In this document: in pieces, positions 8,715 through 29,031 of the stretch
How positions within the stretch are numbered: position 1 is the stretch's first letter
Layout: each line of letters starts with the position of its first letter
Source: Candidatus Rifleibacteriota bacterium
Lineage (GTDB): Bacteria; UBP17; UBA6191; JACPRK01
DNA: 49,727 nucleotides
NCBI GenBank assembly: GCA_016213865.1
Contig: JACQZL010000303.1
Location: forward strand, 1-49,727
Direction: 5' to 3'
Notes under the pieces: generated by a model
Told to the model about the DNA's origin: nothing
Database searches by the model: none
Seen by the model: only the letters and a program-made list of their open reading frames with translations
Position numbers and translations under genes: made by a program

Positions 8715-8733
8715 CAATTCACCGGGAACCAGC

Positions 8734-10473: not shown

Positions 10474-12218
10474 TCGTCGTTCTTGGGCAACACGTCGAAG
10501 AAGGGAGGACGCTCCTCCACCGGTTCGATGGGCCGCACCAGGCCGGAGCGGTTCCAGACAGCGCGGTTGACCATCAGCCAGACCTCGCCCTCGGTGTCCA
10601 CGTAGCGTTCGAGGATGGCGTACCTCTGGCGCAGCAGCTCGAGCACGAACGGGTCCTCCGGCGGCCCCGGTCCAGGGCAGGGGGCCCCCTGGCCGTCCTG
10701 ACGCACGTAGGTCCACGCCAGCGCCGCTCGACTGCGCGGCCCGTCGAGGCCGGCCACCCGGATCGACTCCGACACCGCGAGGAACGCGACCCGATCGTTC
10801 TGCACGTCGTCCAGGAACTTGCAGTAGCTGGTCCAGTCGTAGCCGGCGACGGCCGTCTGCTCGCCGCGGGCCAGCTCGGAGTTGGCCAGGAAAAAGAAGA
10901 GCTGCGGGTCGAGGCCCGTGTGGACGTTCAGGGGGTGGACCCCCAGCGAGAGCGGCCCGCCCTGGTGCGGGATGAAGTCGCGCCACGCGCGGAACCGCTG
11001 GTAGACCAGCCGGCCCACCCGGGAGGGCCAGACGAGGCGCATCTCCCAGTCGGCGGCGGCCTGGTGGCCCGCGAACCTCCGGTGGTCCGCGTGCCAGTAG
11101 TGGTACCACGTCGATTGCCAGACCGACTGCAGCGCGCCCAGTCCCACGACCGCCACCGCGACCGCCGGCGCCGCCCCGCCGAGCGAGCCCATCCCGAGCC
11201 CCGCCGTGGCCGCGGTGGCCGGAAGCAACGGAAGCAGGTAGCGCGCCTCGCCGTGCTGGAAGGACGGCAGGACCAGGAGGGCCCCCAGCGCGCTCGAGAG
11301 GAAGAGGCCGCTTCCGCGAGGGCGAGAGAAGAGCGTCACCCCGACCCCGGTCACCAGGAGCGGCCAGAGAAAGTACCCGCTGCCAAGGCGCAGCTTGTCG
11401 AAATAGTCGAGCAGCCGGACCTGATAGTTGGTCGTCCAGCGCCCCGGCGGAGTGGTCGGGTCGTTCTCGGCGGTGATCCGGATCAAGTTCCAGTCGAGGC
11501 AGAAAAAGTACCAGGGTCCGGCGACCGCGACGGCGACCGCGACGGCGATGCCCAGGCGGAGCAACGCCTCGCGAACGGTCCCGCCCGTGCGGAACCACGT
11601 GACAATCGCGACGGCCACGGGTCCCAGGACGTAGAACGCCACGGTCCACTTGAAGAGCAGCCCCACGGCCCCCGCCAGCCCCAGCACCACGGCGCCGCGC
11701 CTCCCCGGCAGCCCCCGCGGCCCCGAGAGCAGCCCCAGCAGCACGCCGACCGAGCCGACGACCCCGCACTCGAAACTGAGCGTCTTGGTGTGCAGGTTGA
11801 AGAGGGGACCGCCCAGAAGGAAGCACAACGCCACGGTCATGGCGGCGGTCGAGGCGCCGAGCCGCCAAAGGGCCAGCGCCAGGCCCAGCAGTCCGGCGAC
11901 GACCAGCACGTCGCTCCAGAGGACCAGCGTCGACAGGGACGGCCGCACGCCCGGCGTGACCGGCAGCGACAGCCAGGTCATGTAGAGCGGCGGGTAGTAG
12001 TGCTGGCTGACCGCCCAGGTCAGGATGCCCGAGACCGCTTGCACGCGCGCCACCTGGCATGCCGACGACGCGAACTCGCCCACTTCCAGGTGGTTCTGCG
12101 ATTCGGCCATGAAGGCCGCCGAGTTGGCGGTCGCGGCCGCGACGAGCACGACCGTGACCAGGACTGCGAGCCACCAGGGCGCCCGGACGATGCGCGGGGT
12201 GGCTTCAGCGGAGGGCAT
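10470..12218 (-). CDS. Multi-pass membrane glycosyltransferase-like protein (paralogue 1)
   Basis: The protein is 582 residues from ATG 12218 (MPSAEATPRIVRAPWWLAVL). It overlaps the end of the radical-SAM-like gene by 14 bp and the next paralogue by 4 bp, so the genes are probably one transcript. Topology and motifs match the neighbour: FMAESQNHLEVGEFASSACQ in the first loop, YYPPLYMTWL, LHTKTLSFECGVVGSVG and FKWTVAFYVLGPVAVAIVTW, and a hydrophilic C-terminus with HPLNVHTGLDPQLFFFLANSE (counterpart HPLNAHPALDVQLFGFLAHSE). It is probably a lipid-linked sugar transferase of the GT39-like fold. No specificity can be read from the sequence. Confidence 0.75.
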   Translation of the reverse strand: MPSAEATPRIVRAPWWLAVLVTVVLVAAATANSAAFMAESQNHLEVGEFASSACQVARVQAVSGILTWAVSQHYYPPLYMTWLSLPVTPGVRPSLSTLVLWSDVLVVAGLLGLALALWRLGASTAAMTVALCFLLGGPLFNLHTKTLSFECGVVGSVGVLLGLLSGPRGLPGRRGAVVLGLAGAVGLLFKWTVAFYVLGPVAVAIVTWFRTGGTVREALLRLGIAVAVAVAVAGPWYFFCLDWNLIRITAENDPTTPPGRWTTNYQVRLLDYFDKLRLGSGYFLWPLLVTGVGVTLFSRPRGSGLFLSSALGALLVLPSFQHGEARYLLPLLPATAATAGLGMGSLGGAAPAVAVAVVGLGALQSVWQSTWYHYWHADHRRFAGHQAAADWEMRLVWPSRVGRLVYQRFRAWRDFIPHQGGPLSLGVHPLNVHTGLDPQLFFFLANSELARGEQTAVAGYDWTSYCKFLDDVQNDRVAFLAVSESIRVAGLDGPRSRAALAWTYVRQDGQGAPCPGPGPPEDPFVLELLRQRYAILERYVDTEGEVWLMVNRAVWNRSGLVRPIEPVEERPPFFDVLPKNDE

Positions 12219-13422
12219 TGCTTGCCAGGCGCCACGCGGCGCGCGTGAGCCTCGCCAGGTCTCCGGGAGTGCGGACCCGGGCCAACTGGTGCCAGAGGTA
12301 GGACGGCCGGCCATAGAACCGCAGGTAGGCCCGGCGGCGCAGGTCCGCCAGGTCCGCCGCCGTCATCGCACAGAACGAGGCCGGCGGGCTGAGCGAACGG
12401 TCGCGCCCCCCGTCGCAGCTCTCCGGGCTGTCCAGGAACGGGCGCCCCAGCTCGGTCCCGGGAAGGGGCGAGAAGACGTTGAACGAGACGTAATCGAGAG
12501 GCAGGCTCAGGGCGAAATCGACCGTTCGCCGCGCCCCATCGGCGTCCTCGCCCGGAAGCCCCAGGAGAAAGTAGGCCAGCACCCGGATGCCCGCCTCGCG
12601 GCAGCGTTCGACCATGTGGCGAGCGCGGGCCGTGTCGAACCCCTTGCGGTGTCGTGCCAGCATCTCGTCGACGCCGGTCTCCAGGCCCAGCATCACGGTA
12701 TGGCATCCGGCCGCGGCCAGTTCGTCAATCAGCTCGTCGGACAGGCATGCAACCTGAGCGTTGCACACGAACGACGGCTTCAGGCCTCGCTCGTGGACGA
12801 GCCGGCAGAAGTGGCGGGCCCGCGCCGGCCTGGCCGTGAAGTTCGGATCGAGATCGGAAGTCAGCGACAGGCGGTAGCGATCCGCGGGGAAGAGGTCGTG
12901 GCGGGGCACGGGATACGCAAACTCGTGCCCGTTCGCGGCCACCGCACGCACGGCCTCGACCTCCCGCAGGTGCAAGGCAGGAAACGGGCCCGTCTCGCCG
13001 GCCAGCCAGCGGTCCAGGCTGTCGACCGTGTAGTCCGAGAGGACGCCCGAAACGAACGGGAAGCGCTCCAGGACCTGGCGGGCCTCCTTGAGCAGGAAGT
13101 CCCCGGTGAGGACCACCCGCATCCCCGGCCGGGCAGCCGTCGCGCGCCGCAGCAACGCCACGTCCTGGGCCCACGAGAGCGTCCCCGTGAGCATGAGCAG
13201 GGCCTGGGGCTTCAGGCGCTCGAGCTCGGTCAGGCACTCCTGGCTCGAGACCCGGCGAGCCACCGCGTCGAGCACCTCGACCTCGTGCCGGCGGCCCAGG
13301 ATGCCGCTCTGGACGAGCAGATCCACGGGGCTCCAGAGGTCACCCGCCTTCGAGGTGTAGCTGCAGTAGTTGTCACGAATGCAGGGACGGTCGAACGGCG
13401 GGTTCAGCAGGAGGACTCGCAT
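12205..13422 (-). CDS. B12-binding/radical-SAM-like protein lacking the CxxxCxxC cluster motif
   Basis: The protein is 405 residues from ATG 13422 (MRVLLLNPPFDRP). The upstream extension of the frame is made of tandem GC-rich repeats and is rejected. Residues ~1-130 look like the cobalamin-binding-type domain of this family (YTSKAGDLWSPVDLLVQSGI). The C-terminal half matches radical SAM barrels: SFVCNAQVACLSDELIDELA, AAGCHTVMLGLETGVDEML, AYFLLGLPGEDADGARRTV and FNVFSPLPGTELG. However, the segment that should follow YRLSLT, holding the CxxxCxxC motif and the next ~40 residues, is missing: the sequence runs straight into SDLDPNFTARPARARHF. It is therefore either an inactive derivative or carries an in-frame deletion. 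It is the first gene of the membrane-glycosyltransferase operon. Confidence 0.75.
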   Translation of the reverse strand: MRVLLLNPPFDRPCIRDNYCSYTSKAGDLWSPVDLLVQSGILGRRHEVEVLDAVARRVSSQECLTELERLKPQALLMLTGTLSWAQDVALLRRATAARPGMRVVLTGDFLLKEARQVLERFPFVSGVLSDYTVDSLDRWLAGETGPFPALHLREVEAVRAVAANGHEFAYPVPRHDLFPADRYRLSLTSDLDPNFTARPARARHFCRLVHERGLKPSFVCNAQVACLSDELIDELAAAGCHTVMLGLETGVDEMLARHRKGFDTARARHMVERCREAGIRVLAYFLLGLPGEDADGARRTVDFALSLPLDYVSFNVFSPLPGTELGRPFLDSPESCDGGRDRSLSPPASFCAMTAADLADLRRRAYLRFYGRPSYLWHQLARVRTPGDLARLTRAAWRLASNALR

Positions 13423-13663
13423 GGGCTCTCGGGAAACCAATGTAGCAGAGCCGGCCCGGCGAGGCACGGGTCGAGGGCGGGTGGGTGGTTGGGTGGCTGG
13501 GTGGCTGCAAGGCTGCAAGGCTGCAAGGCTGCGGGGGTGCGGGCTGCAGGGCTGCGGGCTGCGGGGGTGCGAGGCTGCAAGGCTGCAAGGCTGCGTGAGC
13601 AAGTGGCCACCTGACCATCCTCCCCTCATCAGCCCCTGACACCTAACACCTAACACCTGCCAG
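13423..13663. repeat. Intergenic region with low-complexity tandem repeats
   Basis: At 13503-13593 there are about ten imperfect copies of a 7-9 base unit (GGCTGCAA / GGCTGCGG), and at 13640-13657 three copies of ACACCTA-type units. The block lies between the radical-SAM-like gene and the asparagine-synthetase-like gene. It has no coding signal, but several frames stay open through it. Confidence 0.7.
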
Positions 13664-15616
13664 CTACCCCCTCTGGCGCCGGTCGAACCACGCCTGGAAC
13701 ATCAGCACGTTCCAGAGCTGTCGATGCCAGTCCCGCGCGCCCGAGAAGTGCTCCTGCCACTTCTGGACGACCTGCTTGGCATCGAAGAAACCCTCGCGGT
13801 TGAGTCGCGACTCGTTGATGAGCCCCAGGGCCCAGTCCTTGAGCTGTCCGCGGAGCCACTGGGCCACCGGGATTCGCCTCTCGGGGCGGGCCTTTCGGAA
13901 GAGCTTGGGCGGCGCGTAGCGGTCCAGCAGCCGGCGCAGTACGTGCTTACCACGCCGGTCTTGCAGGTTCACGCCGGGGGGGATCCGCAGGCCGAACTCG
14001 AGGACGCGCGGGTCCAGGAGCGGGGTGCGCACCTCGAGCCCGGCCGCAGCGCCCGCCCGGTCGTGCCGCACCAGGACGCAGTCGGGCAGGTACGTGGCCG
14101 CATCGAGGGCCATCATGTGCTGCGGAAACTCGGGGACGTCCGGCCACAGCGAGGGGTCGTCGTAGGCCGTGGCGGGCTCCGTGGCTCCGAGAACGACGCG
14201 GGCGCTGTCCAGCCAGTGCGAGACCAGCAGGTGGTAGAGCGCCTCTTCCTTCTGGGCCAGCAGGATTGCGGCCAACTTGTAGACGCGTTCTCCGGCGCTG
14301 CCGCGGGTGAAGGGCTCTGGCCAGACCGAGCGGGTTGCCTGCAGCCAGCCGTTCCAGCGAGGTGGAGGCACCGCCAAGAGCAGCCGGATGATGGCCTGGC
14401 GCATAACGGGCGAGAGGAGCGTGATCGCGCGCCAGATCAGCCGCTCCAGGTAGTAGCGCGAGTGGCCGCCGAAGACCTCGTCTCCGCCCTCGCCGGAGAG
14501 CGCGAGTGTGACGTGGCGGCGTGCGTACTCGGCCACGAGGAGGGTGGGGATCGTCGAGAAGTCGCCCAACGGCTCGTCGTAGACGTCCGGCAGCCTCTGC
14601 ACGAGGTCGAGGCACTCGCGCTCTCCGAAGATGATCTCCGTGTGGTCCGTCCCCGCGTTGGCCGCCACGATTCGGGCCTGGTGCGATTCGTCCTCCTCGT
14701 CGTCGCGGAAGACGACCGAATAGCTCTTGATGGGCTGCTGTGATTGCGATTGCATCATCGCGGCCAGGATCGAGGAACCCACCCCGCCCGAGAGCAGCAC
14801 CCCCAGCGGGATGCCGGCCGTCGACTGGGCCCGGACCACGTCCTTCAGCAGGGCGTCCAGAGCGTCGACGATCTCCGCCTCGCCGATCTGCAGCAAGCGG
14901 CGAGAGCTCTGCTCTGCCACGAGGCGCATCGACCAGAACTGCTGTTCGGCAACCGCGAATCCGCCCGCCTCTCTTGCCTTGACCGTTACGAGCGTTCCGG
15001 CCGGGACCCGTCGGACCTTGGCGAGGATGCTCCGCGGCGCGGGGATGTAGCCCAGGCGCAGGAGCAGGGCCAGCGACCCGCGATCGACCTCGAACGAAAA
15101 GGCCGGGTGGGACTCCAGCGCGCGCACGTCGGAAGCAAAGAGGAAGGACCGCTCCAGCGTCGCCACGGCCATCGGACGGGTGCCCGCCGGATCCCGGGCC
15201 AGTGCCAAGACGCGCTCGCGGCTATCCCAGGCCGCGAAGGCGAACTGGCCCGCCAGCTTCGGGGCGGTCGCCGCGGGCCCCCAGGCCTCGAGGAGGGCCG
15301 CCAGGGTCTCGGCGTCCGACGGGCCCCGCCACGTCACGCCGTCGAGCTGCTTTCGGAGCGATAGGTGGTTGAGGAGCTCGCCATCGAGGGCAACCAGCCA
15401 GCGCCCCCCCGGCGAGGCCACCGGCTGGAGGGTCTCCGGACCAATGCGACTCGTCGCCAGCAGCCTGTGAGCCAGTCCGGCCCCGCCCGCCTCGTCCATC
15501 CACACGCCATCTCCGTCGCGTCCCCGATGCGCCAACGCCGTCGCCATCTTCACCAGATCGGCCTTCAGGGCCGCGGGGGTGCCTTCGGTCGACAGGATTC
15601 CGGCGATGCCACTCAT
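13664..15616 (-). CDS. Asparagine synthetase (AsnB)-like protein with degenerate active sites
   Basis: The protein is 650 residues from ATG 15616. It has the full AsnB layout: an N-terminal Ntn glutaminase-like domain (~1-220) and a C-terminal ATP-pyrophosphatase-like synthetase domain. Conserved blocks are AHRGRD, FAFAAWDSRERVLALARDP, LALSGEGGDEVFGGHSRYY and LEVRTPLLDPRVLEFGLRIP. Key residues differ. The nucleophile Cys2 is Ser (MSGIAG), the NGE motif reads LDGE, the PP-motif SGGxDS reads SGGVGS (~275), and the KxGF segment near residue 577 reads ARPERRIP. AsnB homologues in sugar clusters often amidate uronic acids or peptides. This copy should not use glutamine normally and may be catalytically dead or altered. 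It lies next to glycan genes. Confidence 0.85.
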   Translation of the reverse strand: MSGIAGILSTEGTPAALKADLVKMATALAHRGRDGDGVWMDEAGGAGLAHRLLATSRIGPETLQPVASPGGRWLVALDGELLNHLSLRKQLDGVTWRGPSDAETLAALLEAWGPAATAPKLAGQFAFAAWDSRERVLALARDPAGTRPMAVATLERSFLFASDVRALESHPAFSFEVDRGSLALLLRLGYIPAPRSILAKVRRVPAGTLVTVKAREAGGFAVAEQQFWSMRLVAEQSSRRLLQIGEAEIVDALDALLKDVVRAQSTAGIPLGVLLSGGVGSSILAAMMQSQSQQPIKSYSVVFRDDEEDESHQARIVAANAGTDHTEIIFGERECLDLVQRLPDVYDEPLGDFSTIPTLLVAEYARRHVTLALSGEGGDEVFGGHSRYYLERLIWRAITLLSPVMRQAIIRLLLAVPPPRWNGWLQATRSVWPEPFTRGSAGERVYKLAAILLAQKEEALYHLLVSHWLDSARVVLGATEPATAYDDPSLWPDVPEFPQHMMALDAATYLPDCVLVRHDRAGAAAGLEVRTPLLDPRVLEFGLRIPPGVNLQDRRGKHVLRRLLDRYAPPKLFRKARPERRIPVAQWLRGQLKDWALGLINESRLNREGFFDAKQVVQKWQEHFSGARDWHRQLWNVLMFQAWFDRRQRG

Positions 15617-15927
15617 CCTTGGCCGAGGATACCAGACAGGCTCGGCTCGTGCAGCGGCGGAGCACCGGCGGGGTGCGTTGGTGGTTCGTGGGTCAACAAC
15701 CGCAACTGGCCTTGTGAGTGACGTAGCGCGGGGGCTTGTCCCCCGCTTGGGAAGCGGTCCGTCGCCCTCTGCGAGCCACAAGCACGTCCTGAGCTTGTCG
15801 AAGGGAGCTCGCCACGGGCTGGAAGCCGCTCGGAGAGCGGGGGACAAGCCCCCGCGCTACCTTCTCTCTTGCTGAGGTCTCCTGAGAGCCATGGATGCGT
15901 GAGACCGGCGTACCCGCCGGCGCCGCT
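15617..15927. other. Intergenic region dominated by a composite palindromic repeat
   Basis: Apart from the family A inverted pair at 15723-15860 I see nothing gene-like. The repeat contains CCTGAGCTTGTCGAAGGG (15788-15805), a short REP-like motif common in unrelated high-GC genomes. Confidence 0.6.
15723..15860. repeat. Composite family A repeat, 24-bp perfect inverted arms
   Basis: The arms at 15723-15746 and 15837-15860 are perfect inverted copies of the 24-bp family A unit starting GTAGCGCGGGGGCTTG. They enclose ~90 bp with a further REP-like motif. The same unit occurs singly at 27921-27944 (one mismatch), interrupted at 3402, and diverged at 1672-1739. Confidence 0.8.
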
Positions 15928-17266: not shown

Positions 17267-19204
17267 TTACTGCCACAGCTCGAGGCGGGCAAGCAGGGGG
17301 TGCGGCACCCGGGGGCCGCGAATGGGTATGTAGGTGAGGGTCACCTCGAGCACCCCTCCCGCCAGCAGCCGTCCGTCGAAACCCAGGCTCAAGATCCCCG
17401 AGTACCTGTACGGCACGCCGGGCATTCCGAGCGGCCGATCGGAGGCGGCCATCGCCACCGGCAACGTGAATACTCGCGGACCTGCCGGGGTCCGGACCCG
17501 CACGTCCATCACGTGCCAGGCGCAGAAGTCCCGGACTTCCATGACCCACCACGCCCGCCCTGGACCGAGATGGATCGATCGCGTCCCCGCCGCGGCGGGC
17601 ACCGGGCGGCGCGGTCCGTTTCCACCTGCCGGAAGCTCGAACAACAGCTTGCGACCACGGGGTTTGGGCAGGGTCAACTCCATCTCCGTCACGGGCAGGC
17701 ACTCGGCCGTGACCGGCAACCCCGCGGCGGCAGCCACGAGCCGGTCCGCTCCTCTCGGGGGGCCGGCCAGGAACGGAAAGGCCGCATTCACGGCGGTCAA
17801 ATCATCCAGGAAGTCCGACGATCCGTGGGCCGCAAGGTACGCCGCGGCGTGACGCAACAATAGGAGCGGCATGACCAACCGCGCCAGGTCTCCCGTTGGC
17901 ACTCCTCCCGCGGCCAGCAACTTCTCGGAGCCCTTCAGGTCCCGGGCGAACTGGGTCAATCCGTGCCTGTCGAGCTGGGCCTGGAGCGCCTTCCCCGAGA
18001 GGCCGCTCCACCTCAGCATCCAGTCCAACCGCGACGAGCGCACGGTGCGCGCCAGCGCCTCGAGCCGCGCCAGATGCTGCACCTCTGCCCCCGCCCGGTC
18101 TGAAGGCCGACCTGACGCTTCCAGAGGGACCCGGATCTCGGGCGATGGACCGGCAGCAGGTTCCTCCGGACTCCGGAGCAGCCAGAACAGGACCAACGAC
18201 AGGACCACGAGCACGGCCCCGCCTCCCAGCAGGACAGTCCGCCCGCGCACCGCGGCGGGGTCCCTCGTCCTCGCACCGCCGGCCGGCTGAACCAGCCTTC
18301 GAGTCCGGTTCGGCAACCGCGGTTGTCCGGTCGAACGGGAGCTCGAAGCCGCCGGCTCCGCAGTCTCGTCGGAGTTGGCAGCCCTCTCGAGCAACTCCCG
18401 GACCCGGCGCGCGTCGGGCCTCTTTTCGGGTTTTCTCGCCAGACAGCCGCTGATGACGGCCGCCAGGCCAGGTGGCACGTCCCGTGCCGGAGGCGGCGCG
18501 TCCTCCTCGACCTTGAGGAAGAGCAGCTTCTGCATCGAGCCGCAGTACGGATACGGCAGGTCTCCATGGCAGAGCTCGTAGAGAAGCGTCCCCAGCGAGT
18601 ACAGGTCGCTGGCCGGCGACGCCTTGGCCCCGCCGATCACTTCCGGCGCCATGTAGATGGGGGTGCCGACGCCCACACCTTCGGCCGTCAGCGCCTGTTC
18701 GGTCACGAGTGGCCGCGCCAGTCCGAAGTCCGAGATCTTGACAGCGTCGTCGTTTCCCAGGAGGACGTTACCGGGCTTCAGGTCGCGGTGGATGACGTCC
18801 CGGCCGTGCAAGTACTCGAGCCCCTGCGCGATGGCCAGCCCGATCCGGGTGGTCTCGGGATACGACAGGCGGCCCTGCTCCCGGAACTGGCCTGCCAGGT
18901 CGCTTCCCTCGATGTACTCCATCACGAGGTACGGGGTCCCGTCGAGGCTGCCGGCGTCGAAGACAGGCAGGACTCGCGGGTGGGCCAGCGAGGCCAACAG
19001 GCGCGCCTCGCGCACGAAGCGGGCGACCTCGCCCGTCTCCCAGTGGCTTCCCGAGCGGGTCAGCACCTTGATCGCCACCAGGCGGTTCAAGGCGTGCTGC
19101 CGGGCCAGGTAGACCTTGCCGTAGGCCCCGGCACCCAGGATGCGAACGAACTGGTAAGACTCGAGGAACTGTTGCTGGTCGACCGGTGGCCCGAGGCTCA
19201 CCAT
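17267..19204 (-). CDS. Membrane-anchored Hanks-type Ser/Thr protein kinase
   Basis: The protein is 645 residues from ATG 19204. The kinase domain spans ~17-275 and all catalytic motifs are intact: Gly loop GAGAYGKVYLA (24-34), VAIK lysine (46), HRDLKPGN (139-146), DFG (159-161) and MAPE (185-188). A Ser/Pro/Arg-rich linker leads to one membrane helix (~323-344, LLGGGAVLVVLSLVLFWLLR). The C-terminal ~300 residues would be outside the cytoplasm and form an unrecognised domain. The gene overlaps the upstream FHA/sigma-54 activator gene by 7 bp. This suggests that the kinase phosphorylates a partner read by the FHA domain, linking an outside signal to transcription. Confidence 0.9.
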   Translation of the reverse strand: MVSLGPPVDQQQFLESYQFVRILGAGAYGKVYLARQHALNRLVAIKVLTRSGSHWETGEVARFVREARLLASLAHPRVLPVFDAGSLDGTPYLVMEYIEGSDLAGQFREQGRLSYPETTRIGLAIAQGLEYLHGRDVIHRDLKPGNVLLGNDDAVKISDFGLARPLVTEQALTAEGVGVGTPIYMAPEVIGGAKASPASDLYSLGTLLYELCHGDLPYPYCGSMQKLLFLKVEEDAPPPARDVPPGLAAVISGCLARKPEKRPDARRVRELLERAANSDETAEPAASSSRSTGQPRLPNRTRRLVQPAGGARTRDPAAVRGRTVLLGGGAVLVVLSLVLFWLLRSPEEPAAGPSPEIRVPLEASGRPSDRAGAEVQHLARLEALARTVRSSRLDWMLRWSGLSGKALQAQLDRHGLTQFARDLKGSEKLLAAGGVPTGDLARLVMPLLLLRHAAAYLAAHGSSDFLDDLTAVNAAFPFLAGPPRGADRLVAAAAGLPVTAECLPVTEMELTLPKPRGRKLLFELPAGGNGPRRPVPAAAGTRSIHLGPGRAWWVMEVRDFCAWHVMDVRVRTPAGPRVFTLPVAMAASDRPLGMPGVPYRYSGILSLGFDGRLLAGGVLEVTLTYIPIRGPRVPHPLLARLELWQ

Positions 19205-20529
19205 GGCAAGCCGTGGCGCCTCATCCTCTCGCGCAGCGTGTTGGGCACGATGCCGAGGAGCTTGGCTGCGCGGGTCTTGTTGCCCTCACAGAGGGCCAGC
19301 GTGGCCTGGATCGCTTCCCGCTCGATGTCGTCGAGGGTGCGCCCCTGCAGTCCGCTCGTCGCACGGTCGAACGTGCGCTCGTCCGCCATCAGCATCAGGT
19401 CGGCGGGGGTCATCGACGGACCGGTGCAGAGAGCCGCGGCACGCTCGAGGACGTTCCGCAACTCGCGGACATTGCCCTTCCAGGCCAGCGAGCCCAGCAC
19501 CGTCACCGCCTCGGACGAGAGGCCACGGAGCTGCGGCGGTGCGCTGCCGGCCTCGCGCGCGCGCCCGAGCAGCCGTTCGCAGAGCAGCGGCAGATCCTCG
19601 AGCCGCTCGCGCAGGGGTGGCAGGCGTACCTGCACCTGGGCCACCCGATAGTACAGGTCCTCGCGGAAGGTCCCCTTGGCGGCCATCTCCTTGAGGTCGC
19701 GGTGCGTGGCCGCCACCAGTCGAAAGTCGACCGGGACATATGTGCTGGAGCCCAGCCTGCGGACCTCGCGCTGCTCCAGCACGCGCAGCAGTTTCGGCTG
19801 CAGCTCCAGCGGCAGCTCGCCGATCTCGTCCAGGAAGACCGTCCCCCCACGGGCCTGCTCGAAGATGCCCGCGCGCCGCCCCGTCGCCCCGGTGAAGGCG
19901 CCGGGTTCGTGGCCGAAGAGGTCGCTGCCGGCCAGCTCCCGATCCAACGCGCCGCAATCGAGCGGCAGAAACGGGGCCGCCGAGCGCCGCGACTGCGCAT
20001 GGAGCGCGCGGGCAGCCAGCTCCTTGCCCGTGCCTGTCTCGCCCGAGATGAGGAGCGCGATCTCGGTCTGGGCCATCCGGGCCAGCACCCCGAACAACCG
20101 CCGCATCGCCAGACTCGAGCCAACCAGCTCGCCGAAGACCGGCTCGGTGCTGGTCAGCGCCAGCATTGCGTCCTCACAGGGCGCCAGCACCAGCTCGGTC
20201 CGCCCCACCCGCACGTGCGCGCCCGGGCCGACGAACGCCTCCCGAACGCGCTGGGCGGCCAGGAACGTCCCGTTCGTCGAACCCAGATCTCGCAGCGTCA
20301 CACCGCCGCCCGTGCGGACCAGCTCGGCGTGCCGCCTGGAGACGCTCGAGTCTGTGAGGACGAGGCCGTTCGACGCGTCCGTGCCGATCGCCAGGCGCTC
20401 TCCGTCCAGAAAGGCCTCGCGTCCGAGGTCGGGCCCCTCGACGACCATGACCCGGACCCTGTCCGGCAAGACCCGCGACACCGTGAAGCGCTCGTCCGTC
20501 AGGGGCTCGGTTGTCGGCGACTGCGCCAT
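19198..20529 (-). CDS. FHA-domain sigma-54 dependent transcription activator
   Basis: The protein is 443 residues from ATG 20529 (MAQSPTTEPLTDERF); the longer frame upstream covers a repeat and is rejected. An FHA domain at ~30-115 carries the phosphothreonine-binding signature (VSRRHAEL, GSTNGTFL). The AAA+ domain has Walker A GETGTGKE (163-170), the sigma-54 contact loop GAFTGA (210-215), Walker B GGTVFLDEIGE and sensor LVAATHRDL. The C-terminus ends in a Fis-type helix-turn-helix (KTRAAKLLGIVPNTLRERMRR). It therefore activates sigma-54 RNA polymerase when its FHA domain senses phosphorylation, most likely by the kinase encoded by the next, overlapping gene. Targets are not visible in the window. 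Confidence 0.92.
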   Translation of the reverse strand: MAQSPTTEPLTDERFTVSRVLPDRVRVMVVEGPDLGREAFLDGERLAIGTDASNGLVLTDSSVSRRHAELVRTGGGVTLRDLGSTNGTFLAAQRVREAFVGPGAHVRVGRTELVLAPCEDAMLALTSTEPVFGELVGSSLAMRRLFGVLARMAQTEIALLISGETGTGKELAARALHAQSRRSAAPFLPLDCGALDRELAGSDLFGHEPGAFTGATGRRAGIFEQARGGTVFLDEIGELPLELQPKLLRVLEQREVRRLGSSTYVPVDFRLVAATHRDLKEMAAKGTFREDLYYRVAQVQVRLPPLRERLEDLPLLCERLLGRAREAGSAPPQLRGLSSEAVTVLGSLAWKGNVRELRNVLERAAALCTGPSMTPADLMLMADERTFDRATSGLQGRTLDDIEREAIQATLALCEGNKTRAAKLLGIVPNTLRERMRRHGLPW

Positions 20530-20958
20530 CGGCAGAATCGTAGCACGGGGCGGTGTCGCACGCAGGATTCCGGCGAAGCCCAATACCCATGAATCGAATC
20601 TCTTCTGGTTGTACTTCTTTGCCAATCGGGAGCTTCGCCCCGAACCCCGACCAAGGGATTGCATCCCTTGGAACCCGCGATGATTGCGGGGTCCAGGGGC
20701 GAGCATCGTCCCTGGTGAGGTCTGGAGCGAAGCCCCAGCAGGGACATGAAGTACCGCTAGTTAGTGGTATTGGAGGTAAGACCCGCGCCGAAGCACTGCT
20801 CTGGGTCTCCGGCCTCGGGTCCCTGGCGGCCCCAGCTTCGCAAGGCACCTGGCTCGTGCGCGTCACGAGATCTGTCCTCCCTCGCCGTCCCCGAAATCTC
20901 CACTTTGCACTCTTCTGTTCTCTGTCTCCCGGTCAGCCTCCCCTCCAGCCGGCGGTCC
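20530..20958. other. Intergenic region between divergent genes, with family B repeat
   Basis: No gene is seen. The region holds a family B hairpin repeat (20627-20700). The rest should contain the promoter of the FHA/kinase operon, though I cannot pick a convincing -24/-12 or -35/-10 site on the minus strand. Confidence 0.5.
20627..20700. repeat. Family B hairpin repeat, copy 1
   Basis: The element contains CGGGAGCTTCGCCCCG, then GAACCCCGACC and the perfect hairpin AAGGGATTGCATCCCTT, and then GGAACCC. The same architecture recurs at 23134-23185 with different stem sequences. Confidence 0.6.
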
Positions 20959-23344: not shown

Positions 23345-23597
23345 ATGACCAAGCGGCTGCAGCTCTACTTCGAGGACGCGCAGTACCGTGGCCTCAAGAC
23401 CCTGGCACGAAAGCGGAAACGGCCCATGGCCACGCTGGTTCGCGCAGCCCCTGGATGAGTACTTGGCCCGCGCAGGTGCTTCGGATGCGCTTGCCCGGGA
23501 TCCGCTCTTCTCGCTGGTGGGGATCGTGGACGGTCCTGCCGAAACCACCAACCTGGCCGAGGACCACGACCGAGTTCTCCACGGAGGGGGTTCGTGA
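23345..23597 (+). pseudogene. Ribbon-helix-helix antitoxin (VapB-like), frameshifted
   Basis: The gene starts at ATG 23345 behind AGGAGGAG. The first frame gives an RHH-type N-terminus (MTKRLQLYFEDAQYRGLK...RPMATLVR) and ends early at TGA 23456. The next frame continues the expected protein (EALDEYLARAGASDALARDP...) to a TGA at 23595 that overlaps the GTG start of the toxin. One extra base near 23440-23450, probably in the CCCC run, explains the break. The intact paralogue at 28356 reads ...AHLVREAVAQYMR at the same place. If real, the mutation leaves a VapC toxin without its complete antitoxin. Confidence 0.75.
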
Positions 23598-24010
23598 AGG
23601 CGGTCTTCGTCGACACCAGCGCTTCCGTCGCGCTGCGGTCGCGAAGCGAGTTGCACCACTTGGCAGCCAGCCGGTCTCTGGGCACTCCAGCCAAGGGTTC
23701 GATCCCGCTGGTCACCTCGAATTTCGTGCTAGACGAGACCTACACGTTGCTCAAGGGCCGCTACGGAGCCTGCGTTGCCATCCGGTTCGGGGACGGGCTG
23801 CGCGAGAGCGCGTGGGTCTGGGTCCAACCCGTGGAGGCAGCTCTCCAGGAGCGAGCCTGGCAGATCTTCAAGCGGACGCGTGATCAGGACTTCAGCTTCA
23901 CCGACTGCACCAGTTTCGCCGTGATGGAGTCCTTGCGACTCGACCAGGCCTTCACCTTCGACCGCGGCTTCCAACGGTTCGGCCTGCGGCCGGTCCCCGA
24001 GCCGGGGTAG
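23594..24010 (+). CDS. vapC: VapC-like PIN-domain toxin
   Basis: The protein is 138 residues from GTG 23594, preceded by GGAGGGGG and overlapping the antitoxin stop (GTGA). PIN-fold acidic residues are in place: Asp in VFVDTSAS (N-terminus), Glu in FVLDETYTLL, Asp in FSFTDCTSFAVM and Asp in FTFDRGFQRFG. PIN toxins are Mg-dependent RNases, usually cutting tRNA or rRNA. The gene is complete, whereas its antitoxin gene carries a frameshift. A second VapBC module sits ~5 kb downstream. Confidence 0.88.
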   Translation: MKAVFVDTSASVALRSRSELHHLAASRSLGTPAKGSIPLVTSNFVLDETYTLLKGRYGACVAIRFGDGLRESAWVWVQPVEAALQERAWQIFKRTRDQDFSFTDCTSFAVMESLRLDQAFTFDRGFQRFGLRPVPEPG

Positions 24011-24434: not shown

Positions 24435-24605
24435 CTACGAAGCTCGTCTGTCGTAGGGGAAGATGAGCGGGTTGATTCGCACGGGGTTGGTCAACGGGAA
24501 GAACAGGTAGAGATTGCCCACGGCGAGAGGCAGGGGCGTGAAGATGCGCTCGCATCGATTGCGGTCGTCGCGGCCCAGGTAGAATCGGCGGCCGTACACA
24601 TCTTC
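24435..24605 (-). pseudogene. In-frame continuation of the AAA-kinase-HEPN gene beyond its TAG
   Basis: Directly after the TAG at 24606-24608 the same frame runs 56 more sense codons to another TAG at 24435-24437. The translation begins EDVYGRRFYLGRDDRNRCER and includes LPLAVGNLYLFFPLTNPVRI, which looks like a real compact beta-rich domain rather than random sequence. I infer that the ancestral gene ended at 24435 and that a point mutation (for example CAG to TAG) truncated it. Readthrough is also possible. Confidence 0.6.
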
Positions 24606-27572
24606 CTACCGCGAGATGATCTGCACCACGCGTGGCATGTAGGAGCTCTCGGCTAGCTTCGTTACAATGTCGAGCGCCAGAGACAGGATGAGCTGTCCCG
24701 TGTGTTGCGCATCGTCGATGCTCCCATCAGGGTGCGCAATCCGATTACGTTTGTCCACTAAGATGGCGAGCGACTTGAAGACGGGCGGGTCGAGCAGAGG
24801 CCAACGGAAGACCTGTCGTACGCGGTCAGGCAGAGGCATCTCTGGCTCGGTCGAACAGAGTTGCCGCAGGGCTTTCAGCTTCTGCCCCATCGTGAGGCTG
24901 GCGGCGGGCTTTCCGTCACCGACCTTGTTGAGAAGCGACCCCAACCCTGAGCCGTGGAGCAACTGGCCGTAGAAGCGCACGAGGAGGTCGAGGACACGTT
25001 CCACAGCTGCAATCCCGGAATGGACCATCCCGACACACTCGTCGCTTGTGCTCGCGTGGGCAAGATCGAGGAGGAGGCCGTCCAGGAAACTCCGGGTCGC
25101 CTCGACTCCCGGAATCGACCGCGACCCGGGGAGAAATCCGACAGCGAGCATGATCTTGCGGATCAGTTGCTCTCGGCCGTCAGTCAGGGCTGGGTCGAGC
25201 CCCAGCGCCTTCGCGAGATCGCTCAACTGACGCGCCGTGCAGTTCTCGCGCAGCACTTCGTGGGGCGGCGCGGTATAGCAGTACTCCTCCAGGAGCTCCT
25301 GCCGGCGCTCGACCGGGTCGACTCTCGTGGAGCGAAAACCGCGCTTCTCGAGAGACTCGGCCACGTAGGTCAGATCCTCGACGGGCAAGTGGTCGCGCAG
25401 CAACCGCGCCAGGTTCAAGGGGGCGGATGTGGCGCCCTCTTCGGTCAAACCGAGGCCAAGCAGATCTTCCACCAGGTCGTCGACGCTGTGCGGACGGTGG
25501 GCCGGATTCGGCTCGAGACAACGCAGCACGATGTGGATGAGCTCGGGCGGGACGATTGCCGGGAAACTCTCCACGCCGGGCGGCATCCGCAGGTCGGGTG
25601 AGAGAGTGCCTGGATCGAACGGCAGCTCTCCGGAAAGCAGGCGGAAGAGCGACGCGCCCAGCGCAAAGACCTCTGATGCCACTGTGTGAGAGCCCTCGAA
25701 GCACTCGGGAGCCATGTACGCCCGCGTTCCGACTACTGAGGCGGGCTCGGAGGACTCGACGATCTTGGCAACTAGCTCGAAGTCGCCCAGCTTGCACTTG
25801 GTTCGGTCCGAGTCGAGCAACAGGTTCGATGGTTTCAGGTCCCGATGAACGTACATCTGTGCGTGCAACTCGCGCACCGCGCGACACCCCTGCAGGAAGA
25901 GCCGGAGCAACTGCGCCAGCTCCTGGCGAGTTCGAGGTCGCCCGGCCCAGTGTGAGTTGACCATGTCGAGCAGGCTTCCACCGGCCATGTGCTCCATGAA
26001 CACGGCCACTACACGCTCGCCCCCCGCCTCGATCACGTCGAGCTCGCGGAGGCGAACAACGCTATCCGGTGCTCTCATCGACATCCCTCCCCACGCCTTG
26101 TGCTGGGTCCGCAAAATGCGTGCGAGCTTCTCGGGAGAGTCCTGTAATGAAGGGATCTTCACGGCGAACTTCTCGTGAAGAATGCCCTGAGTGTCCTTGG
26201 CCAAGTAGACGGTTGCAAAGCCACCTTGTCCCAGGACCTTGAGAATCTCGTATCGACTATCGTGCAACATGGTCCCCGTGGGAAAGACCCTCAGCTTTCT
26301 CGCCGACTCCGAGGCAACCGCACCCAGCATCGAGTCGATTGTCCGCTCTGAAGCCCCGGGGAGCCCAAAGACGGATCCCGTGTTCATGTCTCGGAGTAGA
26401 CGGACCGAGGAAACCGAATCGGTCCGCGGCACTGGTCGAGCAGAAGAGCCGTCAGAACGGGCGTCGGACTCGAGTGGCGGGAACGCTGCCAGCAGATCCT
26501 CGAGTTCGGCCTCAAGGCGATCGTCCGGAAGGGGTCCGCGCTCTCCAGGTCCGGCGGCAGCGACAAGTTCGGAAATCGGATCCGGGCCGGCGTTCCGGGC
26601 CGGAGGAGATGAACCGGCGAGGTGCATCACGCCGTCGAGGACGACCAGGTGAGCAGTGGCCGGACGTGGCCCAGCGGTATCGTCGGTTGTCAGGAGAGGC
26701 TTGACGCTCCTTTCGACTTGTCGCCCGACGGCGTAGCCTCCCAGGTGTTCGTCCTCAGTTGCCTTGTCCGCGAGAAACTCGAGCACCGCGTCATCCCACG
26801 TCAGCGTTACCTGATGGCTCTCGCGGTGGCGTCGAGCCAACTCAGCAAGCTGGGCGCTTGCGATCTGCAAGAGAGCGTCTCGGGTGAGCGGCTTAAAGAC
26901 GACGATGTCATCGATCCTGCCGAGCAACGCTGACATTGCCTGGCAGTCTCGGTCCAACCTGGCCTGGATTCTCTCTCGCAGGCCAACCCAATCAGGAGCA
27001 CTCGCGGGAGACTCGAACGCAGTCCGAATGGCATCCTGTTCAATGTTGGAGGTAAGGATGAAGACGGCCTTGGTTCCGCTCGCCTTCACGCCCCGTGTGT
27101 CCTCTATCCAGCCCGCGTCGAACAGGGTCAGGAAAGGGACCCAGACCGTCGGATGGGCCTTCTCGATCTCGTTCAGCAGAATGACCGTTGAAGGGTCGGC
27201 CTCGAGGGTGTTGACGAGGCTACCGCCTCGCTCGTGGCCCGCGAAACCCGGAGGGACACCCATCAGCTCGGCAACGGAATGCGGCTCTGCAAAGGTCGCC
27301 ATCTCGTACGCGACAAGCTGCTTGCCGCGGGAGTGGATCTTCGCGATCGCCTTTGCCAGCTCGGTCTTGCCCGTACCCGACGGTCCGACGAAGAGAAAGA
27401 CCGCAGAGGGCCTCGAGGCACCCTCGTTCTCCTCCCGGGCGAGCGCCAGCCGCTTCGAAACGACCTCTACGGCCTGAGGCTGGGCAAACACCGTCTCCGC
27501 GAGCATCGTCTTCAAGTCGACCTCCGATCCGATCCGTCGCACCGGGCCAAGCAGTGGGCCACGCGGCGCCAT
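24606..27572 (-). CDS. Clp-type AAA+ ATPase / Ser-Thr kinase / HEPN-like fusion
   Basis: The protein is 988 residues from ATG 27572. Residues ~18-300 are a ClpB-D2-like AAA+ module: Walker A GPSGTGKTE (63-71), Walker B VILLNEIEKAH (130-140, with Asn for the usual Asp) and sensor FILTSN. A linker leads to a Hanks kinase (~440-705): GQGGFATVYLAKD, VKIP Lys472, HRDLKPSN (576-583), DFE in place of DFG (597-599) and MAPE (620-623). Residues ~770-815 may form a small adaptor domain. Residues ~825-975 are helical with RNRIAH (942-947), the Rx4-6H signature of HEPN domains, many of which are RNases. The frame ends at a TAG but continues sensibly for 56 codons. It lies between two VapBC modules, which suggests a role in stress or phage response. 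I do not recognise a characterised homologue of the whole protein. Confidence 0.85.
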   Translation of the reverse strand: MAPRGPLLGPVRRIGSEVDLKTMLAETVFAQPQAVEVVSKRLALAREENEGASRPSAVFLFVGPSGTGKTELAKAIAKIHSRGKQLVAYEMATFAEPHSVAELMGVPPGFAGHERGGSLVNTLEADPSTVILLNEIEKAHPTVWVPFLTLFDAGWIEDTRGVKASGTKAVFILTSNIEQDAIRTAFESPASAPDWVGLRERIQARLDRDCQAMSALLGRIDDIVVFKPLTRDALLQIASAQLAELARRHRESHQVTLTWDDAVLEFLADKATEDEHLGGYAVGRQVERSVKPLLTTDDTAGPRPATAHLVVLDGVMHLAGSSPPARNAGPDPISELVAAAGPGERGPLPDDRLEAELEDLLAAFPPLESDARSDGSSARPVPRTDSVSSVRLLRDMNTGSVFGLPGASERTIDSMLGAVASESARKLRVFPTGTMLHDSRYEILKVLGQGGFATVYLAKDTQGILHEKFAVKIPSLQDSPEKLARILRTQHKAWGGMSMRAPDSVVRLRELDVIEAGGERVVAVFMEHMAGGSLLDMVNSHWAGRPRTRQELAQLLRLFLQGCRAVRELHAQMYVHRDLKPSNLLLDSDRTKCKLGDFELVAKIVESSEPASVVGTRAYMAPECFEGSHTVASEVFALGASLFRLLSGELPFDPGTLSPDLRMPPGVESFPAIVPPELIHIVLRCLEPNPAHRPHSVDDLVEDLLGLGLTEEGATSAPLNLARLLRDHLPVEDLTYVAESLEKRGFRSTRVDPVERRQELLEEYCYTAPPHEVLRENCTARQLSDLAKALGLDPALTDGREQLIRKIMLAVGFLPGSRSIPGVEATRSFLDGLLLDLAHASTSDECVGMVHSGIAAVERVLDLLVRFYGQLLHGSGLGSLLNKVGDGKPAASLTMGQKLKALRQLCSTEPEMPLPDRVRQVFRWPLLDPPVFKSLAILVDKRNRIAHPDGSIDDAQHTGQLILSLALDIVTKLAESSYMPRVVQIISR

Positions 27573-27639: not shown

Positions 27640-27876
27640 GTGCATAGACTCTCCCTCTGCGACTTCTCTGCGAGGGAGCAAGAGCTTGCGGATGAAGACC
27701 GCGTGATGTCGCTCTGCGCCTGGCGACAAGGGACCAGGGACAGCGCAGCCACTCGACTCATCACAAACCTGTTGGACCCGAGCGAACATCCGGCCTGGAA
27801 GCTGATCAGCATTGCCCAGCGGGGCCAGGCCTGCCTGGTGGTGCCGAAGACGGCCGGCGACGAGACAGTCCGCTGA
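27640..27876 (+). CDS. Doubtful small hypothetical protein or gene remnant
   Basis: The ORF has 78 codons from GTG 27640. The second half (TRLITNLLDPSEHPAWKLIS...) has codon third positions strongly rich in G/C, as in real genes here. The first half does not, and there is no clear ribosome binding site. It may be the remnant of a longer gene. No domain is recognised. Confidence 0.25.
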   Translation: MHRLSLCDFSAREQELADEDRVMSLCAWRQGTRDSAATRLITNLLDPSEHPAWKLISIAQRGQACLVVPKTAGDETVR

Positions 27877-27920
27877 AGCGGGGCCCTTTGGCCCGCTCGG
27901 GTCGAGCCGCCGCTCCACAA

Positions 27921-27944
27921 GCGGGGGATAAGCCCCCGCGCTAC
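27921..27944. repeat. Family A repeat, single arm
   Basis: The 24 bases match the arm at 15837-15860 with one difference (GGATAAG for GGACAAG). No matching inverted arm is found close by. Confidence 0.7.
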
Positions 27945-28330
27945 AGCCAATGAAGAGAACCGCCCGTCGTGTCGCCATGATCCAGCGTCGCTCCCGGGCG
28001 ACCCTGGCCCGGCGGACATGCAGACCCAGCTCGAGGCGGTCGCCGGGCGGTTGGCGGTGTTCTGGAAGCCGCGGGAGGGAAGTCCAGGAGCGAGGTGCCC
28101 CTTGTCCTGGTAGGGGTTCAGAAGCTCCAGCTCGACGACGCGCTCGCTACCGGAAAGACCGAGCAACGCAGTTGGGCGTCGACGTCCACAGGGCCTGAGA
28201 GCCCGGCAACAAGAAGGACGGCTCGGTGCTCATCGAGAGCCTGCCCCAGACCTTTGGGGCGAGGGTCCGGACAGGGTCCAACGAGAGTCCCGGCAGCCTT
28301 GGCCGGGTGGCCGCTCCGGGTCAAGTGCTG

Positions 28331-28336
28331 TATACT
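28331..28336 (+). promoter_or_regulatory. Candidate -10 box (TATACT) of vapBC-2
   Basis: TATACT lies 20 bp upstream of the vapB ATG. I see no good -35 at 17 bp, as is common for promoters regulated by their own antitoxin. Confidence 0.35.
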
Positions 28337-28355
28337 CCTTGATGTAGGTGTCAGC

Positions 28356-28646
28356 ATGAGCAGCGTCAAGCGCACCCAGGTTTACATGCCGGTCGACACG
28401 TATCGGCGTCTGGAGGTGCTGGCCCGAAGGAGGAGGCGCTCGGTCGCGCACCTGGTCCGCGAGGCCGTCGCCCAGTACATGCGGGGACAACCGCCCGAGC
28501 CATCGGCCGGGCAGGACCCCCTGTGGGACTTCCTGGCAAGAGAAGAGGGCCACCAGTCCGACGGTGCCGCCCAACTGGACAGGTACCTGTATGGCAAGGA
28601 TCCTCCGAAAACTGCCTCTCGCCCCCGCAAGAGTGTTCGGCGATAG
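28356..28646 (+). CDS. vapB: VapB-like ribbon-helix-helix antitoxin
   Basis: The protein is 96 residues from ATG 28356. The N-terminal 45 residues form an RHH DNA-binding domain (MSSVKRTQVYMPVDTYRRLE, then SVAHLVREAVAQYM). The C-terminal half is a charged, probably disordered toxin-binding tail (DPLWDFLAREEG ... RYLYGKDPPK). The gene overlaps the start of the PIN toxin gene. It is the intact counterpart of the frameshifted antitoxin at 23345, and the two share the LVREA helix. Confidence 0.82.
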   Translation: MSSVKRTQVYMPVDTYRRLEVLARRRRRSVAHLVREAVAQYMRGQPPEPSAGQDPLWDFLAREEGHQSDGAAQLDRYLYGKDPPKTASRPRKSVRR

Positions 28647-29031
28647 CGGGCCGTGGATAGCCGGTCAGCTCCGACGCGATCAGTACCACACCCGAGCGAT
28701 GGCGGTCTGGGGGAAGCTGCGAGCCGAAGGAAACCGGCTCATGACGACCACGTTCGTCATGGACGAGGCGGTGACCTTCGTGCGCTACCGCGAGGGTCTC
28801 GCCGCAGCCCGGAGGCTGGGCGACAGTATCATGGGCAGTGCGCTGGTGGAGCTCGTGGAGGTCGATCGCCCCCTGGTGAACCGCGCGTGGGAACTCTTCG
28901 TTTCTTCAGGGGAGCTGGAGTTGTCCTTCACCGATTGCACGAGCTTTGCCGTGATCGAGCAATTTGCGATTTCACGGGTGTTCGGTTTCGACGAGGACTT
29001 TCGCGCCACGGGTGCCGAGCTCCTGGGATAG
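28633..29031 (+). CDS. vapC: VapC-like PIN-domain toxin (second module)
   Basis: The protein is 132 residues from GTG 28633, which places the first PIN strand (VFGDSGPWIA) at the N-terminus as in the other VapC; ATG 28591 in the same frame would add 14 residues. Acidic PIN residues are Asp in FGDSG, Glu in FVMDEAVTF, Asp in SFTDCTSFAV and Asp in FGFDEDF. It overlaps the vapB tail by 14 nt. The two VapC proteins of this island share the FTDCTSFAV block and are probably related. The expected activity is sequence-specific RNA cleavage. Confidence 0.83.
   Translation: MFGDSGPWIAGQLRRDQYHTRAMAVWGKLRAEGNRLMTTTFVMDEAVTFVRYREGLAAARRLGDSIMGSALVELVEVDRPLVNRAWELFVSSGELELSFTDCTSFAVIEQFAISRVFGFDEDFRATGAELLG

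Follow-up and report, generated by a model that had tools for sequence, protein, structure and literature searches.

A Clp-type ATPase, Ser/Thr kinase and HEPN-like fusion protein of a Rifleibacteriota bacterium and its family of probable kinase-HEPN effectors

Introduction

The predicted protein P0001 is encoded in a 49,727-nucleotide stretch of DNA, here called the window, from Candidatus Rifleibacteriota bacterium (assembly GCA_016213865.1, contig JACQZL010000303.1, positions 1-49,727 of the forward strand; GTDB lineage Bacteria; UBP17; UBA6191; JACPRK01). It joins a Clp-type AAA+ ATPase, a Hanks-type Ser/Thr kinase and a helical C-terminus carrying RNRIAH, the R-x4-H motif of HEPN ribonucleases (RNases). 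Comparison with its relatives showed that it belongs to a genuine family, whose members are probably kinase-HEPN effectors. We estimate a probability of about one half that P0001 is a member of an effector family in which a variable N-terminal part senses a signal, clustering activates the kinase and a HEPN RNase stops growth.

Domain organization of P0001

The first-pass annotation had reported the three parts in this order, with a complete kinase, and the observation was confirmed; the open reading frame (ORF) lies on the minus strand, which that annotation had not given (Table 1). Pfam matched AAA_2 at residues 54-222 (E 1.3e-30), ClpB_D2-small at 229-294 (E 3.5e-7) and Pkinase at 441-695 (E 1.2e-32), and found no match beyond residue 705 at E values up to 1. 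Among the best 60 of 2184 sequence matches in the PDB, those to residues ~20-320 were mostly D2 domains of the ClpB/ClpC type and those to residues ~436-706 were kinases of the PknB/StkP type. The protein database's own prediction, P0002, has 969 residues and starts 19 codons later than P0001.

The kinase and its family

A search with the whole protein returned mostly Clp proteins, with the kinase-end relatives P0003 and P0004 among the best 120 of 1049 matches, while the C-terminal part of P0003 retrieved at least 42 proteins, including P0002, the window's own. The protein searches scored the 7996, 7993 and 7998 candidates that shared most words with the query, and the genome searches considered no more than a handful per genome (5 in two of the searches). 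All family counts are accordingly minimum values. The family alignment comprised 42 rows, P0001 and 41 relatives, with P0002 left out in favor of P0001. The relatives P0125, P0133, P0138 and P0147 came from Pyrinomonadaceae or Acidobacteriota. A genome scan gave one locus, L001, in a Chloracidobacterium sp. UBA7656 metagenome-assembled genome (G001).

The aligned sequences showed a constant core, consisting of a Hanks kinase followed by a helical region, a HEPN-like domain and a predicted five-stranded tail, behind an N-terminal part that varies. Pfam found the kinase in all 42 rows, a double zinc ribbon in 10, Zn_Ribbon_1 in seven and a biotin/lipoyl domain in two; two kinase stretches were present in P0003, P0124, P0134 and the L001 protein. 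The otherwise variable linker upstream of the kinase contained T-x2-V-F, often as W-x4-T-x2-V-F, in 38 of the 42 rows, the match counted for the window being another one that lies in the AAA+ part rather than the NTGSVFG of its linker. Two of the four rows without the motif have 13 or fewer residues upstream of the kinase. T-x2-V-F is a possible docking motif, and the retention of NTGSVFG in the window protein suggests that the AAA+ domain took the place of the zinc ribbons or first kinase of other members while the family linker was kept.

The kinase has all of the hallmarks of the Hanks type: the VAIK lysine, the HRD aspartate, the catalytic asparagine and the DFx aspartate. His576, Asp578, Lys580, Asn583 and Asp597 were invariant (42/42), and Lys472, the VAIK lysine, was present in 41 rows. 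In P0001, HRDLKPSN begins at residue 576 and DFE at 597; DFE replaces DFG in 36 of the 42 rows. In PADLOC, the kinase region scored best with MAD6 of the MADS system (173 bits) and PD-T4-6 (127 bits). Assignment to either system was rejected, since the likeness was confined to the kinase domain and the NCBIfam model for MAD6, whose cut-off is 460 bits, gave 96; the window neighbors were scanned with Pfam, no MADS-specific search being made.

The C-terminal HEPN-like module

The RNRIAH motif was conserved more than would be expected by chance. Arg942 was present in 41 rows and His947 in 39 (two Asp and one Asn in the others), and the residue following the arginine was Asn in 36 rows and Asp in four, a polar residue in 40 of 42. 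P0150, the sole row without the aligned arginine, has one two residues earlier. In HEPN domains the motif is located at the end of helix 3 or the start of the loop to helix 4, as described in PMC3710099. In the model of the window C-terminus, Arg245 was near the end of a helix spanning residues 232-248 and His250 just after it, which would put the motif where the third helix of the predicted bundle ends. Both the motif form, R-x4-6-H with a polar residue after the arginine, and its modeled position thus agree with the first-pass assignment.

Structural comparison of the model with VIA-align gave six best rows that were all HEPN (about three distinct proteins), with modest scores, and Pfam HEPN_RiboL-PSP matched one of the 42 family members (6e-4). 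Foldseek gave no confident match to the C-terminal model. A sequence profile of the module found nothing relevant in the PDB; the sole match with E <0.001, a phosphoribosylamine-glycine ligase at 8.9e-4, fell outside the R-x4-H part. When a whole kinase relative was submitted to VIA-align and Foldseek, the matches listed were filled by kinases and were thus uninformative on the C-terminus. The C-terminal domain is probably an RNA-cutting domain of the HEPN type.

A second family with a Macro domain

A four-row alignment of the module matched three of 396 Acidobacteriota genomes, G001 with its L001 locus and, more weakly, G356 and G194, whose proteins carry a Macro domain ahead of the C-terminal module. 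A search with the module of the G356 protein returned at least 22 proteins. Nineteen of these (the shortest, P0162, P0163 and P0168, were left out) and the protein of the G194 locus, L007, formed a 20-row alignment in which Arg590, Asn591 and His595 (R-N-x3-H) were invariant. Profile-profile comparison of the kinase-family and Macro-family modules gave a probability of 99.8 and an E value of 1.2e-29 over 325 columns, spanning both the HEPN motif and the tail; on this comparison the two modules are homologous. The Macro-HEPN proteins (L006:10167-12263) also have a second R-N-x3-H-like motif, with nearly invariant Arg263 and His268, located after the Macro domain and ahead of the C-terminal module.

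A joint seven-row profile matched four of the 396 genomes at E 0.001: one at 0.001 itself, and the three named above at 1.1e-76 or lower. Matches were found in one of 162 genomes in the class of G001 (four-row profile), one of 193 in the class of G356 and one of 12 in the order of G194, each the genome already known. The distribution is therefore patchy within the reach of these searches. The module was not found in one scan of viral contigs or by tblastn in plasmids and phages. The whole of P0001 gave partial matches to 2631 plasmid records, none with 80% or more query coverage, and the matches listed were to the AAA+ part. No description of the kinase-HEPN or Macro-HEPN family was found in the open-licence literature, although one could exist elsewhere.

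The AAA+ domain

The AAA+ domain resembles the D2 domain of ClpB and ClpV (TssH) in having a Walker A motif, a ClpB-D2-small lid, a GRIDD sequence and, at residue 107, PPGFAGH, which we take to be arginine-finger-like and pore-loop-like, respectively. It differs in that there is a single AAA+ domain, with no Clp N domain or D1 found, a kinase is fused to it and the Walker B position reads N-E (LLNEIEKAH, with N at residue 134), while P0006, P0008, P0009, P0015, P0017, P0021, P0038, P0110 and the AAA+ protein of L001 have Asp there. The best NCBIfam models, ClpV1/TssH with 203 bits (cut-off 885) and ClpB with 176 bits (cut-off 1232), matched the D2 region and scored far below the values for the whole families.

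In the tree, the domain grouped with the divergent Clp-like proteins P0005 and P0006 (support 100/99), a join that may be false because all three are long branches, flagged as such by the tool. The possibility that the fused domain is the AAA+ partner gene of L001 joined onto the kinase was rejected, since the two domains scored 89 bits against each other compared with 187 bits for the nearest Clp-like protein, P0005, and lay apart in the tree, although both had long branches there. A Clp-type ATPase was thus found beside or joined to the kinase twice, in two forms that may not be orthologous, a hint of a functional link and no more. One Clp-like protein, P0007 (1281 residues), has PF12770 and PF01364 in its precomputed Pfam list; we take these to be CHAT and C25 peptidase, so that the protein would presumably couple a Clp ATPase with a protease-like domain.

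Integrity of the window copy

The ORF, possibly that of a broken gene, stops short of the conserved tail. All 41 other rows extend at least 54 residues past the last residue of P0001 with a conserved tail, five-stranded in the model of P0138, and the 56 window codons past the TAG encode a matching sequence, 56-87% identical to the tails of the relatives (mean 77%), with guanine plus cytosine (GC) contents of 0.61/0.43/0.80 at the three codon positions; the listed ORF therefore ends within a conserved domain. Pfam found AAA_2 in one of the 42 rows, that of the window protein itself. The HEPN motif is less strictly kept than the kinase center, the histidine being lost in three rows and the aligned arginine in one, whereas the five catalytic kinase residues never vary.

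P0001 may be a decaying copy, the product of a sequencing error or a truncated variant. A degraded or mis-assembled copy, the tail having been lost through a nonsense mutation or through an error in sequencing and the AAA+ fusion being a functionless accident, is a reading to be taken seriously, although we think it less probable than the effector-family reading. It would account for the tail still encoded beyond the stop, the single occurrence of the fusion and the Asn in Walker B; moreover, when the 14 proteins encoded opposite the kinase gene at L001 were compared with the window by tblastn (E 1e-3), 13 were unmatched and the AAA+ protein alone gave a match, at the AAA+ domain of P0001. On the other hand, P0001 runs for 988 codons without a stop, with the kinase and HEPN motifs intact, and its codon-position GC content is typical of coding sequence in the AAA+, kinase, middle and HEPN parts and less so in the linker (0.73/0.59/0.64). 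Upstream, neither a longer Clp protein nor a first kinase had left a significant remnant; the best of the weak matches, to a stretch of the L001 704-residue protein at ~27741-28070, had an E value of 0.010 (1.2-kb target), not significant given the number of queries. Relatives with an uninterrupted C-terminal end exist.

The HEPN-like domain could, rather than being a nuclease, be an RNA-binding or dimerizing adaptor, the kinase being the output of a signaling protein with variable inputs, a reading that we consider unlikely. The occasional loss of motif residues is in keeping with it, and some HEPN domains that lack the motif are thought to be non-catalytic, according to a passage of PMC3710099. 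However, two families that differ in their N-termini retain the motif, nearly always in the kinase family and always in the Macro family, and this suggests a role separate from that of the kinase.

The first-pass annotation proposed that sensing, phosphorylation and RNA cleavage in one chain would form a self-contained stress or abortive-infection switch. As a family design, this was not supported: the AAA+ domain is confined to one member, the only kinase relative with genome context (L001) has its kinase beside an array of 14 ORFs, and the tail is missing from the window copy. The idea of a kinase-coupled HEPN effector was supported, while the three-part switch hangs on a single, possibly broken gene.

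Table 1. Positions of the features described in the text
Feature	Residues	Position	Strand	Basis
Fusion ORF P0001	988 residues	24606..27572	-	ATG to TAG
ClpB/ClpV-D2-like AAA+ domain	20-320	26613..27515	-	Pfam AAA_2 and ClpB_D2-small
Walker A, GPSGTGKT	63-70	27363..27386	-	motif
Walker B position, N-E replacing D-E	134-135	27168..27173	-	motif
Low-complexity linker holding NTGSVFG, a form of T-x2-V-F	321-429	26286..26612	-	motif
Hanks-type Ser/Thr kinase	441-695	25488..26252	-	Pfam Pkinase
Helical region between kinase and HEPN, within the common C-terminal module	~711-815	25128..25442	-	
Predicted HEPN-like four-helix domain	~816-984	24621..25127	-	model
RNRIAH (R-x4-H)	942-947	24732..24749	-	motif, family conservation
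In-frame TAG inside the conserved C-terminus of the family		24606..24608	-	alignment
56 codons of tail past the stop, outside the ORF, same frame		24438..24605	-	comparison with relatives
PIN-domain gene, one side of the fusion ORF		23594-24010	+	
RHH and PIN pair, other side of the fusion ORF		28095-29031	+	
Array of 14 ORFs at L001/L008, divergent from the kinase gene and on the strand opposite to it		G001:C159, ~2700-23020		
Macro-HEPN gene of G356 (L006)		downstream of HsdM, HsdS, HsdR-like and RadC genes	same strand	Pfam
Macro-HEPN gene of G194 (L007)		kinase/PD40-repeat ORF before; ARPP-1 and WYL/WCX genes after; opposite metallo-beta-lactamase/RMMBL gene		

Gene neighborhoods

The survey of neighbors suggested by the first-pass annotation placed some relatives in conflict-type settings, namely among the genes of a type I restriction system (L006) and beside the 14-ORF array (L001). 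At L006 the Macro-HEPN gene is followed by DUF5655 and PLD genes, and two ORFs of the locus had no Pfam match. The array at L001 encodes a ClpB-D2-like AAA+ protein (606 residues) and vWA, radical-SAM-like, HEAT-like and GlnD-like proteins. It also encodes a GAP1-N2/GAP1-M-like protein, both matches of which (E 1.3e-4 and 1.6e-3) scored below the curated cut-offs, and another protein that matched a zinc ribbon weakly and in which inspection by eye showed a P-loop-like stretch; several ORFs had no Pfam match. PADLOC, applied to 10 of the 14 array proteins, matched the AAA+ protein only.

The L001 kinase, which faces GAP1-like, P-loop-like and vWA proteins, recalls the GAP1-N2/DO-GTPase conflict systems, a theme described as actinobacterial by Kaur et al. 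2020 (PMC7159879). The relevant section of that paper mentions no HEPN or AAA+ fusion, and such partners are missing from the window: Pfam matched neither GAP1 nor a GTPase in the 23 other window ORFs scanned (for one ORF, among the best 25 of 42 families).

In the window, Rrf2, Fe-S and MOSC genes flank the fusion ORF on one side, polysaccharide genes on the other. The RHH and PIN pair is presumably VapBC-like. A scan for promoters and terminators returned none, nor were there Rfam matches or tRNA genes in the window. Elsewhere on the minus strand are a second Hanks kinase (645 residues) beside an FHA-sigma54 activator (502 residues; 17267-20706), a 1730-residue ORF with HEAT and WD40 repeats (3762-8954) and a radical SAM protein adjoining an asparagine-synthase-like protein with a glutaminase domain (12205-15847). 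In L001, too, the kinase is followed by a sigma54-type gene (13368-14390), which matched that of the window at E 5e-23, maybe a mere family likeness.

Rather than acting in defense, the proteins could be proteostasis or developmental regulators in which a Clp-type domain or neighbor monitors folding and the kinase and HEPN domain adjust RNA, much as in the unfolded-protein response. The ClpB/ClpV-like AAA+ domain of P0001 with its pore-loop-like aromatic motif and the ClpB-D2-like gene adjoining the L001 kinase would fit such a role, and HEPN domains are tied to unfolded proteins through Ire1 and sacsin, as noted in the abstract of PMC3710099. However, the two AAA+ domains are not close, the C-terminal module is otherwise joined to a Macro domain, in one case near restriction genes, and the distribution among the genomes searched is patchy, and we regard a role in proteostasis as rather improbable.

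Proposed mechanism and comparison with known systems

For the effector family, in which sensing, kinase and RNase would act in sequence, the following scheme is envisaged: 1) the variable N-terminal part would receive the signal, the AAA+ ring of the window copy perhaps reading a client protein or an assembly state, 2) clustering would activate the kinase, 3) kinase activity, through phosphorylation, or dimerization would switch on a metal-independent HEPN RNase, and 4) cleavage of RNA would stop growth during infection or stress. A stronger version, which we think distinctly unlikely, would make P0001 a one-chain counterpart of Ire1 and RNase L, in which a Clp ring that senses a client, either a phage protein or a misfolded one, clusters the kinase, which then switches on the HEPN RNase, within a modular receptor family built from a kinase-HEPN or Macro-HEPN core and varied sensors.

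Among known HEPN proteins, the HEPN-MNT toxins (for example, PDB 7ae2, 6m6u and 5yep) and the HEPN protein 2hsb differ in that no sequence match to the module was found. The HEPN domain of P0001 is fused to a kinase, not paired with a nucleotidyltransferase as in HEPN-MNT modules, and no MNT antitoxin was recognized among the neighbors scanned.

In Ire1 and RNase L, the RNase is activated by dimerization. They are the nearest functional parallel to P0001, which may be likened to them in that a kinase is followed by a HEPN-type R-x4-H domain in one chain and the RNase of its family is possibly activated in a dimer. It differs in the helical region of ~110 residues between the kinase and the HEPN domain, in the beta tail of its relatives and in its unrelated N-terminal inputs; the likeness is one of domain order. 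No protein with KEN, the RNase domain of Ire1 and RNase L, was among the structural matches listed by VIA-align and Foldseek, an absence from such lists that excludes nothing. KEN is assigned to the HEPN superfamily of RNases in PMC3710099, where it is called quintessentially eukaryotic and is said to lack specific relatives in prokaryotes. Should the HEPN domain prove to be an active RNase controlled by the kinase, the family would represent a bacterial kinase-RNase design resembling one that the same text treats as eukaryotic, presumably reached independently. Such a kinase-RNase core would be coupled to interchangeable sensors, with a C-terminal module that it has in common with the Macro-domain family.

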